From the IMG/VR virus record IMGVR_UViG_3300037137_003411, positions 1-21,170 of that record: a stretch of 21,170 bases of DNA. One strand, written 5' to 3'. Positions 944-8,988 of the stretch are shown piece by piece. The stretch's first letter is position 1, and each line of letters opens with the position of its first letter. The stretch comes from a virus. The position numbers and the translations under genes were made by a program. Under the pieces are notes generated by a model. It did no database searches, was not told where the DNA came from, and saw nothing but the letters and a program-made list of their open reading frames with translations.

Positions 944-1408
944 ATGAAATTAGAAATTAAAGAAACAAAAGAAACCATGAACTTGCAAAGCTTTTTACTA
1001 GAAAATTATCTCGAACTAGATGAAGGTATAAAACATCACAAATTAAGCGATAAGATTAACAAGCTCCTAGAAATCCTTGAGGCTAAAAGATTTATTAAAA
1101 GTTCAGAGGATGACAAGAATGCTCTAGATAAAGCAGAAGTAGCATTAAGAGAAATGCTCCCAGAAGTTAAACGAACGGAAATTGCTTATGAAAGAGGAAA
1201 TATAAACAGAAGGCAAGCACTGGAAAGAATTAGAAAATTTAGAATAAAATCTCTAGCTGTTAAAAAATATCTAGAAGATAAAAAAGTTTTAAACAAGATA
1301 GACTGGAAATTTCTTATCAGCACTGGCTTATCAATTATTTTTCTACCCCTTGTCTTTGCACGAACACAAGGTCTCATAGATGTTATATTACCTAGACCAA
1401 AAGGATAG
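944..1408 (+). CDS. Paralogue A of a tandem small-protein family with C-terminal hydrophobic segment
   Basis: This 154-residue protein has no recognised function. It is the first of three tandem relatives. An acidic N-terminal stretch (SFLLENYLELDE) is followed by a basic helix (KLSDKINKLLE), a charged helical middle, the conserved patch YERGNINRRQAL and then KKYLEDKKVLNKIDW. A hydrophobic segment at about residues 125-143 (FLISTGLSIIFLPLVFA) could span or attach to a membrane. The next protein matches it through MKLE, RQA and KKxLxDKKxLNKxDW, which supports the start at 944 even though no good Shine-Dalgarno is visible; an inner ATG at 977 is possible. It may be a membrane-active or virion-internal protein, but that is inference. 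Confidence 0.7.
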   Translation: MKLEIKETKETMNLQSFLLENYLELDEGIKHHKLSDKINKLLEILEAKRFIKSSEDDKNALDKAEVALREMLPEVKRTEIAYERGNINRRQALERIRKFRIKSLAVKKYLEDKKVLNKIDWKFLISTGLSIIFLPLVFARTQGLIDVILPRPKG

Positions 1409-1412
1409 AATT

Positions 1413-1874
1413 ATGAAACTAGAGAAATTTGTTGATACTAAAGATTTTTATACCGAAGAATTTTTAAATCTTATTACAGAAGTAGCTGGTTCTCATCGTT
1501 TAAGTAAAAAGATAGAAAAACTAATTGAGAAACTTGAAAGTAAAAAAATTACTCTTCCTTCATCAGATTTACCTGACCTAAACAAGGTGGTTAAAATTCT
1601 TCATGACGAATTACTTAAAAAAATAAAATTTCTAGAACGGGAATTTGAGAAGGGAAATCTAAATGCAAGGCAAGTTGCTTTTAAACTAAAGAGATATAAA
1701 GGAAGAGCGCTACAAGTTAAGAAATTTTTACAAGATAAAAAAATACTTAATAAATTTGACTGGCAATTTTTGGTTTATGCAGGTTTGGGGCTCATGTGGC
1801 TGCCTTCAGCAGTTACTTCAATTCCAAGTTTTATTGAAATGCTTGGTCCAAAACCAGCTATTCCTATTAAGTAA
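1413..1874 (+). CDS. Paralogue B of the tandem small-protein family
   Basis: The 153-residue product is clearly homologous to its upstream neighbour: SHRLSKKIEKLIEKLESKK matches the first basic helix, EFEKGNLNARQVA matches the middle patch, and VKKFLQDKKILNKFDW matches the block before the hydrophobic segment (FLVYAGLGLMWLPSAV). I chose ATG 1413, not an upstream in-frame ATG at 1380, because AAAGGA lies 8 bases ahead and the product then begins MKLE like paralogue A. The gene starts four bases after the previous stop. The C-terminus is Pro-rich (GPKPAIPIK), as in A (LPRPKG). No family is known to me. The N-terminal region contains FLNLITE, a possible (L/I)xE cleavage-type motif. Confidence 0.75.
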   Translation: MKLEKFVDTKDFYTEEFLNLITEVAGSHRLSKKIEKLIEKLESKKITLPSSDLPDLNKVVKILHDELLKKIKFLEREFEKGNLNARQVAFKLKRYKGRALQVKKFLQDKKILNKFDWQFLVYAGLGLMWLPSAVTSIPSFIEMLGPKPAIPIK

Positions 1875-1895
1875 AGATAATAACAGAGGAATGAA

Positions 1896-2474
1896 ATGAG
1901 TAAATTATTTGATGTTCTGGAAAAAGTTAAATATGGTGAAGAGTACGAATATATTAAAATAGATGAAGATATAGATGAGGACATAGAAGTTCTAGAAGAA
2001 GGCATTAAATTCTTTAAGGCTAGCCAGCGTCTAAAAAAATTAGCGGATAGATTACAAAAAAAAGACATGAAAGAAATGTCTCCTATAATTGAAAGAACTA
2101 GAAAAGCAGCTAGTGAATTTGAAAGAATTGAAGGTAAGTTTGAAAAGGGTGAAATTACAAAAACTCAAGCTAGACTTAGAATTGATAGTATTAAAAGAAA
2201 TTATAATGATATAATGAAAATGTTGCGTGGCAAAGAATTTGGCGCTTTTCTAAAAGTTGGTGGTATAGTAGCTATTCTTGGTGGTATAGTTGCTTCCATT
2301 ATTTTTGGTTTCCAGCCACTACAAGCAATAGGAATTACTTTACCCAGTTGGGACAAGATAAAAAATACATTAGGACTAATAAGTACGGCAGCGACTAGGG
2401 AATATAATACTTTAAAAAAAGCTTTCGAACAGAAAGTTCTTCCAGCAGTCAAGAGTGCCGTTTCTAGCCTATGA
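1896..2474 (+). CDS. Paralogue C of the tandem small-protein family, diverged and longer
   Basis: At 192 residues this is the most diverged of the three. It keeps the same order: an acidic N-terminus (KIDEDIDEDIEVLEE), the basic helix SQRLKKLADRLQKK, the patch KFEKGEITKTQARLRI, then a Gly/Ile-rich hydrophobic segment at about residues 118-142 (VGGIVAILGGIVASIIFGF) that looks like a true transmembrane helix. An extra amphipathic C-terminal tail of about 45 residues follows. The start is supported by AGAGGA about 8 bases upstream. Translation ends at TGA 2472-2474, followed by two terminators, so this is the last gene of the left operon. Function is unknown; the GxxxG-like hydrophobic stretch suggests membrane insertion or oligomerisation. 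Confidence 0.75.
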   Translation: MSKLFDVLEKVKYGEEYEYIKIDEDIDEDIEVLEEGIKFFKASQRLKKLADRLQKKDMKEMSPIIERTRKAASEFERIEGKFEKGEITKTQARLRIDSIKRNYNDIMKMLRGKEFGAFLKVGGIVAILGGIVASIIFGFQPLQAIGITLPSWDKIKNTLGLISTAATREYNTLKKAFEQKVLPAVKSAVSSL

Positions 2475-5511: not shown

Positions 5512-6207
5512 TCATTCTAGATAAATCCTTTCTTTAAATCTTTTAATCAACCATTTGTAAAAAGGTTCATCTATTACCTTTACTTTTACTTTATATAAAT
5601 TTTTAAAGGCATCAAATTTTCTTCTAGCATCTTCCATCCACCTTCCTTTTACTTCTATCCAGTATTTTTTATCTGGTAAATAAAAATCTGGAATAAAAGT
5701 TTCGTTTTCATTTATTTCGTATCTCGTAGTTTCAAATTCCCATTTTATCTGTAAGCAATTTAAAATTCTAGCTATATTTGCTTCCCAAGAACTACGAAAA
5801 TAAAAACCTACATCTTCTCTAAATCCGTGTTTAAAACCATTATTTTTACCTATCTTATTTCCATAATTAGGATTATTTTTACCAGTCCATCTTTTTATTT
5901 TTAAGGAATGCTCCGATAATTTTTTCCCTTTATTTGGATGATAGAGTTGTCCGATGTTTATTACTCCATATCTTTCAATATTTGTATTTTTCATTTTTTT
6001 TATTTGTCTTTCCGTTGGTTCTCCTTTTTTTCTTGTTTTTATATTTTCTAATTTTAATAATTTTGCTAGAGTTTGTCTCGCAATATTATACTCAATTCCT
6101 AGTTCTTTAGAAGTATATCCATTTAAATATTTTTCTATTATTTCATTTTTATATTTATTGAAAATTTCCAGAGTGGTTAAATGAATAAGGTAGTTGCTTT
6201 GTTTCAT
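5512..6207 (-). CDS. Free-standing homing endonuclease, PD-(D/E)XK (VSR-like) type
   Basis: The 231-residue product combines a helix-turn-helix-like N-terminus (residues about 26-54, GYTSKELGIEYNIARQTLAK), a NUMOD3-like NNPNYG segment near 111-116, and a C-terminal nuclease core: FRSSWEANIARIL with E142, then IPDFYLPD with D174, and WIEVKG with E185-V-K187. That order is typical of the EDxHD/VSR-like homing endonucleases of phages. Start at 6207 is preferred over an ATG at 6231 because AAAGGT precedes it with suitable spacing. It ends in tandem TGA-TAA stops, 30 bases before the DHH gene. Such genes are mobile and cleave intron-less or endonuclease-less alleles, so this one probably invaded the operon. 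Confidence 0.85.
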   Translation of the reverse strand: MKQSNYLIHLTTLEIFNKYKNEIIEKYLNGYTSKELGIEYNIARQTLAKLLKLENIKTRKKGEPTERQIKKMKNTNIERYGVINIGQLYHPNKGKKLSEHSLKIKRWTGKNNPNYGNKIGKNNGFKHGFREDVGFYFRSSWEANIARILNCLQIKWEFETTRYEINENETFIPDFYLPDKKYWIEVKGRWMEDARRKFDAFKNLYKVKVKVIDEPFYKWLIKRFKERIYLE

Positions 6208-6270
6208 ACAACTACCTTTACAAGACGACATCGAAATCTATATGTTTTTCATATCTTTATCTTTACTTAA

Positions 6271-7413
6271 TTATTCTATTGGATACTCATATACTTTGCC
6301 CAAGTAGTTTTTAATTTTGTAGCTAGTTTCATCTTTAGCAAGAATAGTTTGTGTTGAAATGGGTATCTTTCCGCCACCCTTGGGGGCATCAATAACAAAT
6401 TTTGGAACAGCAAAACCAGATATAAAACCTTGTAATTCATCTATTATTTCTAATCCTTTTTCTACAGAAGTTCTAAAATGCTTTGAACCAGTAATAGGAT
6501 CGCACTGATATAAATATCTAGGTACAACTCTCATTTTTACAAGACCTAGCATTAACTTCTTCATCGTTTCGGCATCATCATTGATACCTTTAAGTAATAC
6601 CGTTTGACTACCAAGCACTATACCAGCATCAGCAAGCATATTACAAGCCTTACTTACTTCTGGCGTAATTTCATCTGGATGTGTAAAATGTATATTAATA
6701 TAAAGTGGATGAAATTGTTTTAAACTATTTACTAGTTCACTAGTAATGCGTTGGGGCATTACTACCGGAATTTTCGTACCTATCCTTATAACATCTATAT
6801 GTGGAATCAAACGTATCTGCTGTAAAAAAATAAGGAGTATGGAAGTATCCATTGATAACGGATCGCCTCCTGAAATAATTACATCCCGTATTGACTTGTG
6901 AGACGAAATATACTGAACAGCCTTTTCCAGATTTATTGAATAGCAATTTTTTTCTCCTACCGACCTAGACCTAGTACAATACCTACAATAAGAAGCACAG
7001 ATACTAGTCACTAGTAAAAGTACTCTATCTGGATAACGATGTACTAGTCCCGGAACAGGACTCATATCATCTTCATGTAAAGGGTCGTCTTCCTCACCCT
7101 TACTTTTGATGAGTTCTTCGCTAGAAGGAATTACTGTCTTACATAGAGGGTAATTTATATTTTTTTGGTATAATAGAGAAGCATAATATGGTGTTATGCT
7201 TAAAGGAAACTTATATTCCTTTTCTTCTAAACCTTCTATCTTTAACTTTTTTAAATCGGAAAATGAAGTTAATCTGTTCGCCATTTGCCAATGCCAATTT
7301 TCCCAATCTCTTTCTTGTATGTAAAATGGTGCTTTTAGCACCCATTTACTTGGAGGTTCCTGCGGTTCCTCTGGTGCTTCTTCTATCGAAGAAGACAATG
7401 TCTCACTAATCAT
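6271..7413 (-). CDS. kamA: Lysine 2,3-aminomutase (radical SAM, PLP)
   Basis: This 380-residue enzyme has the radical SAM cluster C139-x3-C143-x2-C146 (CASYCRYC), SGGDP at 181-185, and the PLP-lysine motif DAPKGGGK with K349. D305 (YQCD) and D342 (VIDAP) match the two aspartates that hold the substrate lysine side chain in clostridial lysine 2,3-aminomutase, so L-lysine to beta-lysine is the predicted reaction. It is shorter than the clostridial enzyme (about 416) and lacks its C-terminal zinc-binding cysteines. EpmB, the EF-P-modifying relative, is also short, so either free beta-lysine (an osmolyte precursor) or EF-P modification is possible. A consensus promoter lies just upstream and it is first in the minus operon; the Shine-Dalgarno (GAGGT) is rather distant. 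Confidence 0.93.
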   Translation of the reverse strand: MISETLSSSIEEAPEEPQEPPSKWVLKAPFYIQERDWENWHWQMANRLTSFSDLKKLKIEGLEEKEYKFPLSITPYYASLLYQKNINYPLCKTVIPSSEELIKSKGEEDDPLHEDDMSPVPGLVHRYPDRVLLLVTSICASYCRYCTRSRSVGEKNCYSINLEKAVQYISSHKSIRDVIISGGDPLSMDTSILLIFLQQIRLIPHIDVIRIGTKIPVVMPQRITSELVNSLKQFHPLYINIHFTHPDEITPEVSKACNMLADAGIVLGSQTVLLKGINDDAETMKKLMLGLVKMRVVPRYLYQCDPITGSKHFRTSVEKGLEIIDELQGFISGFAVPKFVIDAPKGGGKIPISTQTILAKDETSYKIKNYLGKVYEYPIE

Positions 7414-7597: not shown

Positions 7598-7865
7598 TCA
7601 TTATAGTGTAGAAAATACAAAATCAATAAAGTTTTTACAAATCAATAAATCTTAATTACTTATTAGTTAGTTGTCAAGTGTTAAAGTTGACTAGCGGGTT
7701 GATTAAATTAAACGCTATCGAAAGAAAAAAAGAAAAGATTTCGAAGTAAGTAGATAAGGGTTGAAAAGTGTATCTTTTATCCTTTTCGGAAAAATATATT
7801 TTTTAGATTATAAATTAGTTAATTAAAGAAATTCTTGTAAAGACATAGATAGATTAGGAGATTTT

Positions 7866-8750
7866 ATGACTAAAAAGATTGATGCTATTGACTTAACGAA
7901 AATTAAAAACATTCAAGCAGTTAATAAAGTAGAACCCGGATTTGAGGACCGAGTTGTTAAAGTTGCCGAACAAAAGAAAGCAAAAGAAGGAAAATTTAAT
8001 TTCTCTGCTGCGGAGCTTATTCCTCTTCCCAGTGGTGGAAGACTTTATACTTCTGTAACAACAGACACAGATATACTTAAGGGTTTTATTAGAATTAGAC
8101 CAATGACTATTAAAGAAGAGGAAATTCTTTCCACTTCTAGATTTGCTAAAACTGGCTCGACTACTAGAATGATTATAGATAGATGTCTAGATTCTGAAAT
8201 TGATGCCAAAGATATATTGCTTTATGATAGTAATTTCCTATTATTTTATTTAAGAAAAATCTCTTATGGAGATGAATATCAGTTTCCTCTCACTTGTGGG
8301 AACCCGGTCTGTGAAAAAAAGTTTGATCATAAAATAAATATATCGCAACTTCAATTTGAAACTCTTCCAGAAGATTTTGAAGAACCTATAGTTGTAGAAC
8401 TTCCTAAATCAAAATATATAGTGAAGATTATTCTTCCTAGACTTTATCACTCAGAAGAAATTTATATGAGAAATATGAATAGAAAGAAACGATCTGATGA
8501 AGAAGACAAGAGACTAGTAGATAATATCATGGTCACAACCATGGAAATAATAGATCCATATGGTAAGTCCCTATCTAGAGGAGACTGGGAGGAGTTTATG
8601 AATTCTCTACCTTCGATGGATAGAGCGGAATTAACAGAAGCAACTTCTTATACTACTGGGGTAGATAAACTTCAGGATGTGGCATGCCCTTACTGTGGTA
8701 GTGACTTCTCTGGAACTATTCCTATAGGTCCAGAGTTTTTTCGCTTTTAG
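7866..8750 (+). CDS. T4 gp26-like baseplate/tail assembly protein with zinc ribbon
   Basis: The 294-residue protein resembles the T4-type gp26 baseplate hub family. A disordered charged N-terminus precedes LIPLPSGGRLY and IRPMTIKEEEIL, followed by the helical core. Four cysteines, C144-x4-C149 and C274-x2-C277, look like a split zinc ribbon enclosing a region with SLPSMDRAELTEAT. In T4, genes 26 and 51 are adjacent and help assemble the baseplate hub. AGGAG precedes the ATG with good spacing. The gene ends ...TTT TTT CGC TTT TAG, and a second reading frame without its own start continues from that stop, so a longer frameshifted form is likely (see next entries). Confidence is good for the family and lower for the exact T4 counterpart. 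Confidence 0.8.
   Translation: MTKKIDAIDLTKIKNIQAVNKVEPGFEDRVVKVAEQKKAKEGKFNFSAAELIPLPSGGRLYTSVTTDTDILKGFIRIRPMTIKEEEILSTSRFAKTGSTTRMIIDRCLDSEIDAKDILLYDSNFLLFYLRKISYGDEYQFPLTCGNPVCEKKFDHKINISQLQFETLPEDFEEPIVVELPKSKYIVKIILPRLYHSEEIYMRNMNRKKRSDEEDKRLVDNIMVTTMEIIDPYGKSLSRGDWEEFMNSLPSMDRAELTEATSYTTGVDKLQDVACPYCGSDFSGTIPIGPEFFRF
8736..8750 (+). promoter_or_regulatory. Candidate programmed frameshift site (TTT TTT CGC TTT TAG C)
   Basis: At the stop of the gp26-like gene the P-site codon TTT (8745-8747) is followed by TAG. A +1 slip re-pairs tRNA-Phe perfectly on TTT (8746-8748), and reading continues AGC GAA GAA. The stop is followed by C, a weak termination context. A -2 slip on the TTTTTT run at 8736-8741 would enter the same frame. 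Both routes are inference from sequence. Confidence 0.6.
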
Positions 8751-8988
8751 CGAAGAAAACAAAAAAGGGATTTATTCCAGTATCTTCGCGCTTGTCAATC
8801 ACGGATTTGATTATCCATCCATTTGTAGGATGCCACTGGAAGAATATCAATACTATATTAAACTCTATAATCAAAAACAGGATGAAGAAGAGTCTAGAGC
8901 TAGACAGGCCGCAGCACAATCTAATTTAGAAGCTAGAATGCCTGATGGAAAGTCTATCGGACAAGTTTTACCACAGGTCTCCAAATAG
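8749..8988 (+). CDS. gp51-like downstream part of a frameshifted tail-assembly protein
   Basis: This 79-codon frame is +1 relative to the gp26-like gene and is open only from after TAG 8725-8727. It has no ATG, GTG or TTG start near its beginning; the first ATG (8830) lies inside the conserved-looking part and touches AGG without usable spacing. The product reads IFALVNHGFDYPSICRMPLE followed by a charged, Gln/Glu-rich helix, as in small tail-assembly chaperone extensions. T4 gene 51 lies directly downstream of gene 26, and lambda G/GT shows that such pairs can be fused by frameshifting. The fused product would be 373 residues. It ends at TAG 8986-8988, overlapping the end of the convergent gene. 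Confidence 0.65.
   Translation, partial: SEENKKGIYSSIFALVNHGFDYPSICRMPLEEYQYYIKLYNQKQDEEESRARQAAAQSNLEARMPDGKSIGQVLPQVSK

Follow-up and report, generated by a model that had tools for sequence, protein, structure and literature searches.

The window analyzed here, a 21,170-nucleotide stretch of DNA, is a viral contig of 21 kb that carries gp32-like, UvsX-like, and helicase genes of the T4 type. On its plus strand, an open reading frame (ORF) at positions 7866–8750 encodes a 294-residue protein of the T4 gp26 family. This gene is preceded by an AGGAG Shine-Dalgarno sequence (7856–7860, plus strand, read from the sequence), which is located 5 nt before the ATG at 7866, and ends in TTT TAG C at 8745–8751, with the TAG starting at 8748. 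The family assignment is based on the PF12322 profile (E = 2.3e-19, 70.4 bits versus a cut-off of 24.5) and on PHROG 150 (E = 1.2e-19), and the protein is assigned as the putative short chaperone form (TAC-N, or ‘G’). An AF2 model of the protein has a pLDDT of 90.6. Its best two matches in VIA-align both span residues 170–262: the first is YqbN (3klu, Z = 5.5), known as a tail-assembly chaperone, and the second is that of HK97 (2ob9, Z = 4.2). These scores are modest for a TAC-N fold, and the Foldseek match to known tail chaperones is weak (E = 1.2). No other family was seen above Z = 4 in the VIA-align comparison, an absence that is not itself evidence, and the likeness of the model to tail-assembly chaperones is only suggestive. 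Adjoining the chaperone gene, on the minus strand (6271–7413), is a gene for a KamA-family radical SAM protein near lysine 2,3-aminomutase (TIGR00238, above its cut-off), an unusual cargo for a phage. Elsewhere in the window, three ORFs in a row (154, 164, and 192 residues; 944–2474, plus strand) appear by eye to be diverged tandem paralogs, and a 239-residue protein (5512–6231, minus strand) resembles, also by eye, a homing-type endonuclease with an HTH start and a PDxxxP...EVKG end; an NCBIfam match to this protein was not found.

Behind the gp26-like gene, the +1 frame is open. The last upstream stop codon in this frame is a TAG at 8725–8727 (plus strand, read from the sequence), after which any shift must come, and the frame then runs from 8728 to a stop codon at 8986–8988, 79 codons beyond the gp26-like TAG. 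This openness exceeds chance: 79 open codons were obtained in 0.5% of trials under a first-order Markov model of the region. Ahead of the conserved domain encoded in the +1 frame of the window, there is no ATG, GTG, or TTG, and the first ATG, at 8830, lies inside the domain and lacks a spaced Shine-Dalgarno sequence. The original prediction had described the TTT-TAG-C end, the 79 open codons, and an extension without a usable start codon or Shine-Dalgarno sequence, all of which are confirmed here. The extension itself (8743–8988, plus strand; 81 residues and a stop codon) corresponds to a ‘T’ domain (TAC-C). In a search of all six frames of the window with an extension profile from which the window and its three nearest relatives had been left out, the +1 ORF was the sole match (E = 1.7e-8; next, 0.085). 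A profile of the cyanophage T domain also finds this ORF (E = 2.3e-5). By hhalign, the +1 extension is linked to the cyanophage T domain (97%, E = 1e-10), and this domain is linked to the tail of T4 gp51 (96.9%, E = 2e-10). A direct HMMER link from the extension to T4 gp51 was not found (E = 0.2); it is this profile–profile route via the cyanophages that relates the C-terminal T domain of the window to the T4 gp51 tail as a homolog. The −1 frame of the window was also considered as a T-coding frame; it is open for 59 codons and encodes nothing that resembles a T domain.

Searches of viral contigs with a single protein or with two sequences returned one relative only, and larger alignments were needed. 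Alignment searches seeded with mid-gp26 patterns added 80 loci in one round and 35 in another. Among these relatives, contig L001 has a gp26 protein that is 63–65% identical to that of the window and shows the same overlap. Of the 118 gp26-family loci that have a complete gp26 end, 112 show at least 40 open codons across the stop codon in the +1 frame and 11 do so in the −1 frame (a small number of loci fall in both groups), and the median open length past the stop codon is 72.5 codons in the +1 frame versus 11 in the −1 frame. The +1 frame is open in this way even though the search seeds lay mid-gp26. Judged from its substitutions outside the overlap, the extension is under purifying selection, with pN lower than pS in 149 of 149 pairs (extensions 60–97% identical) and a median ratio of 0.28. 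The +1 overlap is also found in the cultured phages Bacillus SP-15, Listeria LIS04, Streptococcus GXN1, Flavobacterium immuto, and Microcystis Mel-JY01. In SP-15, LIS04, and immuto, the gene is situated between the tail tube and tape-measure genes (in immuto, a ‘tail completion’ gene takes the place of the tail tube gene). More broadly, a large ORF is next to the gp26-type gene at 75 of 94 loci; in the window, L001, and a further relative, L050, this gene is not beside a tape-measure gene.

These comparisons bear on two explanations that do not require a ribosomal shift. The window comes from one metagenomic contig, and the site contains a homopolymer, so the split frames could be read as an assembly or sequencing error or as a broken former fusion gene. 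The same layout, however, recurs in over 100 further contigs as well as in SP-15, LIS04, GXN1, and immuto, with pN below pS, and this reading is already refuted by existing data. The indel at the T run that the original prediction had named as one way in which it could fail is likewise ruled out by more than 100 independent genomes. Alternatively, the T domain could be a separate protein made from a nonstandard or internal start by translational coupling behind gp26. Some relatives on the −1 side do have a start codon that overlaps the stop codon (TAATG in QD01 and 1.255.O; TGATG in RHph_I9). Against such a start in the window are the absence of initiation codons ahead of the domain, noted above, and a +1 frame that is open across the Phe pair described below. 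An ATG plus a Shine-Dalgarno sequence for the extension is present at only 3 of 110 loci of the window’s clade, so homologs with a normal start, the second challenge that the original prediction had set itself, leave it standing. A separately initiated T protein is considered extremely unlikely.

The feature that is shared across the family lies close to the gp26 C terminus and consists of two Phe residues (the Phe pair) with Arg or Trp directly behind them; in the window, it reads EFFRF. The proposed +1 shift site is UUU UUU CGC at 8736–8744 (plus strand), which encodes F291, F292, and R293. The slip codons, at 8739–8744 in the window, are conserved family-wide as UUU_CGN, UUU_UGG, or CUU_UGG. 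In 100 unique canonical sites, the second codon of the Phe pair is UUU in 92, CUU in 8, and UUC in none, as compared to a 27% share of UUC among Phe codons elsewhere in the same genes. The base after this codon is always U or C, which means that a P-site tRNA-Phe (or tRNA-Leu) that steps forward by one base always has UUU or UUC to pair with; +1 re-pairing is possible at 100 of the 100 sites. A further in-frame TTTC lies at 8283 of the window. The locus has the combination expected for programmed frameshifting, a conserved slip-prone sequence within an overlap and conserved coding downstream, and a short and a long form, as in T4-type chaperones, would both be encoded by way of the overlapping +1 ORF. 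We estimate a probability of about 0.86 that this one gene yields two tail-assembly chaperone forms by a programmed +1 frameshift at F292. The most likely point of the shift is UUU_CGC at 8739–8744, which would create the junction EFF|AFSEEN instead of EFFRF|SEEN; either junction gives a protein of 373 residues.

The latter junction follows from the slip site of the original prediction, TTTTAGC at 8745–8751 (plus strand). In an RF2-type slip at this stop codon (UUU_UAG_C, F294), tRNA-Phe would move +1, and the product would read ...GPEFFRFSEENK rather than ...GPEFFAFSEENK. The re-pairing at UUU U would be perfect, the stop codon would serve as a slow A-site codon, and L001 and L050 keep UUU UAG and UUU UAA, respectively. 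In nearly all other relatives, however, the zero frame runs several codons beyond the Phe pair and has unrelated ends (GAC TAA, CGA TAA, CCT ACT AAA TAG), while UUU_YGN is constant. The TTTTAGC motif is present in the window, but of the relatives only L001 keeps it and L050 keeps part of it, and what the family shares are the Phe-Phe-(Arg/Trp) codons two upstream. A slip at the stop codon is, for these reasons, unlikely.

Two further explanations make use of the run of six U residues at 8736–8741, which the original prediction had pointed out and which is real. A −2 slip on this run would reach the same frame and give EFFFAF, not EFFAF. A slip of this type has been proposed for phage Mu, and U6–U7 runs would permit −2 re-pairing at 86 of the 100 sites. 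The remaining 14 sites have UUC UUU and bar a −2 slip, whereas a +1 slip fits all 100; UUC is the first Phe codon in these 14 of 100 sites and is never the second. A −2 shift is therefore regarded as very unlikely. Transcriptional slippage at the T run could instead produce a subpopulation of mRNA with an altered U count, for which the U6 of the window and the U7 of many relatives would be the substrate. RNA polymerase slippage normally requires longer runs, however, and the arrangement is kept at 22 of the 100 sites with only 3–4 T residues, which leaves this route scarcely credible. Some relatives depart from the canonical site: L034, L037, L038, L039, L043, and L044 keep the +1 overlap, have L-F-N-P in place of the Phe pair, and may shift instead at CCC_AGU. 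A few relatives with such other sites, or with the −1 frame (L004, L008, L009, and L053), count against the +1 mechanism.

In the preferred +1 shift at F292, most ribosomes would terminate at the TAG at 8748 and release the 294-residue gp26-like short form. A minority would pause with peptidyl-tRNA-Phe on UUU at 8739–8741 and with the Arg codon in the A site not yet decoded. The tRNA-Phe would then slip forward by one base, from UUU at 8739–8741 to UUC at 8740–8742, and translation would continue in the +1 frame to 8985, giving a long form of 292 + 81 = 373 residues that has the T domain at its C terminus. If the two forms divide their work as lambda gpG and gpGT do, the tape-measure protein would be coated by the short form, and tail-tube subunits would be brought in through the T domain. 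The sequences show the layout of the frames and its conservation, the purifying selection, the conserved slip-prone codons, and the homology between the T domain and the T4 gp51 tail; from these, we infer the occurrence of the shift, its efficiency, and the chaperone role of the two forms. RNA structure around the site was also considered. The 100-nt RNA at 8701–8800 folds unusually well in the window (z = −3.88) and in L001 (z = −2.77), as compared to −0.60 in L050. A 10-bp hairpin predicted from this folding (8736–8758, plus strand) would enclose the shift site, and a second hairpin in the same segment ends one base before the U run. The 10-bp hairpin is probably not a frameshift stimulator, since it is not kept in L050 and there is no family-wide signal for downstream structure (mean z of −0.59 versus −0.56 inside the gene). 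Upstream of the site, enrichment of Shine-Dalgarno-like sequence is modest.

The direction of the shift differs within the family. Cyanophages, along with several phages of Vibrio, Aeromonas, and Rhizobium, encode the T domain in the −1 frame, downstream of U_UUU_UUN. This heptamer is present in 12 of all 14 −1 cases and in 2 of 106 +1 loci (Fisher p = 8e-13, uncorrected for relatedness). Among the +1 loci that have UUUUUU, the base before it is U in 3%, versus the 39% predicted from the codon use of the same genes. A tree of 67 gp26/gp51 domains, which derives from a quick search and has some long branches, shows two deep sides. One side holds the classical T4 relatives, all of which use −1, −1/ATG, or two genes, and the other is that of the window, in which 45 of 49 use +1 and two groups use −1. 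This tree requires 5 state changes, versus a mean of 20.9 after shuffling. L004, L053, L008, and L009 are located on the +1 side, use the −1 frame, and all have U_UUU_UUY at the Phe pair. We lean toward a reading in which the gp26/gp51 family consists of two deep lineages that shift in opposite directions at the same Phe-Phe codons, with small changes in context setting the direction and with L004/L053 and L008/L009 as natural switches between +1 and −1. The context would plausibly consist of U or non-U before the Phe pair and the CGN or UGG codon after it. It also seems reasonably likely that the −1 shift was used in classical T4 relatives before the T4 gene duplication and the +1 shift in a large, mostly uncultured sister lineage.

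The two T4 genes fit this scheme. PF12322 matches T4 gp26 (E = 9e-64) and T4 gp51 (E = 4e-52), the latter only over residues 1–201 of 249. At the sequence level, T4 gp51 is a gp26 paralog that carries a T tail, i.e., the long form as a gene of its own, such that T4 genes 26 and 51 would represent the short and long forms encoded apart. The original prediction of a fusion between gp26-like and gp51-like proteins holds insofar as a gp51-like tail would be added by a +1 shift; T4 gp51, however, is not simply the extension but a gp26 paralog that bears it. One PF12322 gene is present per genome in SP-15, LIS04, GXN1, and LR756508, and two in T4 and 44RR. Genes 26 and 51 precede 27-28-29 in T4, where they form a divergent pair; in Enterobacter phage EC-F2 (L133), the gp51-like gene and the gp26-like gene lie one behind the other on the same strand. 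According to PMC3004832, T4 gp51 is needed for assembly and is absent from the particle, and both gp26 and gp51 count as hub assembly chaperones. Their description as T4-type tail-assembly chaperones comes from Vladimirov, Gautam & Davidson (2022, Virology 566:9–15, PMID 34826709), as represented in PMC10885494 and PMC12846349. Assignment of gp51 as the long form agrees with that work, as cited there, and with PMC3004832. The link between the lambda-type and T4-type arrangements that the original prediction envisaged had, according to the same two citing papers, already been proposed by Vladimirov et al.

Tail chaperones hold a fixed ratio of short to long forms, usually by frameshifting, with T4 long the named exception among long-tailed phages, as in a 2016 review (PMC5009743). 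What seems to be new, with Vladimirov et al. represented by its citing papers, is a large sister lineage in which the same Phe-Phe codons serve a +1 instead of a −1 shift; neither the +1 direction nor the clean contrast with the −1 relatives was found described in the literature searched, in which that study was covered through these papers. A −1 shift, a +1 shift, and gene duplication would each yield the same protein pair from homologous genes, and the family lets one test what sets the direction of a shift and how a second gene replaces frameshifting. Many phages are annotated without the long form (SP-15, LIS04, GXN1, ACG-2014i), and a simple motif suggested for finding it is UUU or CUU with CGN or UGG as the next codon, close to the gp26 end. 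In SP-15 (L005), only an internal 39-residue piece of the T domain is annotated (SP15_046), and the domain is unannotated in the public genomes of ACG-2014i (L135), ACG-2014b (L137), L003, and L006.

The gene in the window is very likely one in which a programmed +1 frameshift makes the long form of a T4-type chaperone. Like T4 gp26 and gp51, its products would combine a PF12322 domain with a homologous T tail; the window’s clade differs in its use of +1, with UUU or CUU then CGN or UGG and mostly a non-U base before the Phe pair. The gp26/gp51 genes of the Kyanoviridae (Sf-CH11, ACG-2014i, P-TIM40, ACG-2014b, HTVC008M) have the same two domains in overlapping frames and probably shift at the same Phe-Phe codons, but in the −1 frame behind U_UUU_UUN. 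For lambda gpG/gpGT (Xu et al. 2004; Atkins et al. 2016, PMC5009743), the shift is −1 on a different slippery sequence, and no sequence homology with the window was found. The tail chaperone of the haloarchaeal myovirus HSTV-2, for which a +1 shift has been inferred and is very likely (PMC5009743, PMC8211752), differs in its archaeal host and resembles the gene in the window in the direction of its shift.
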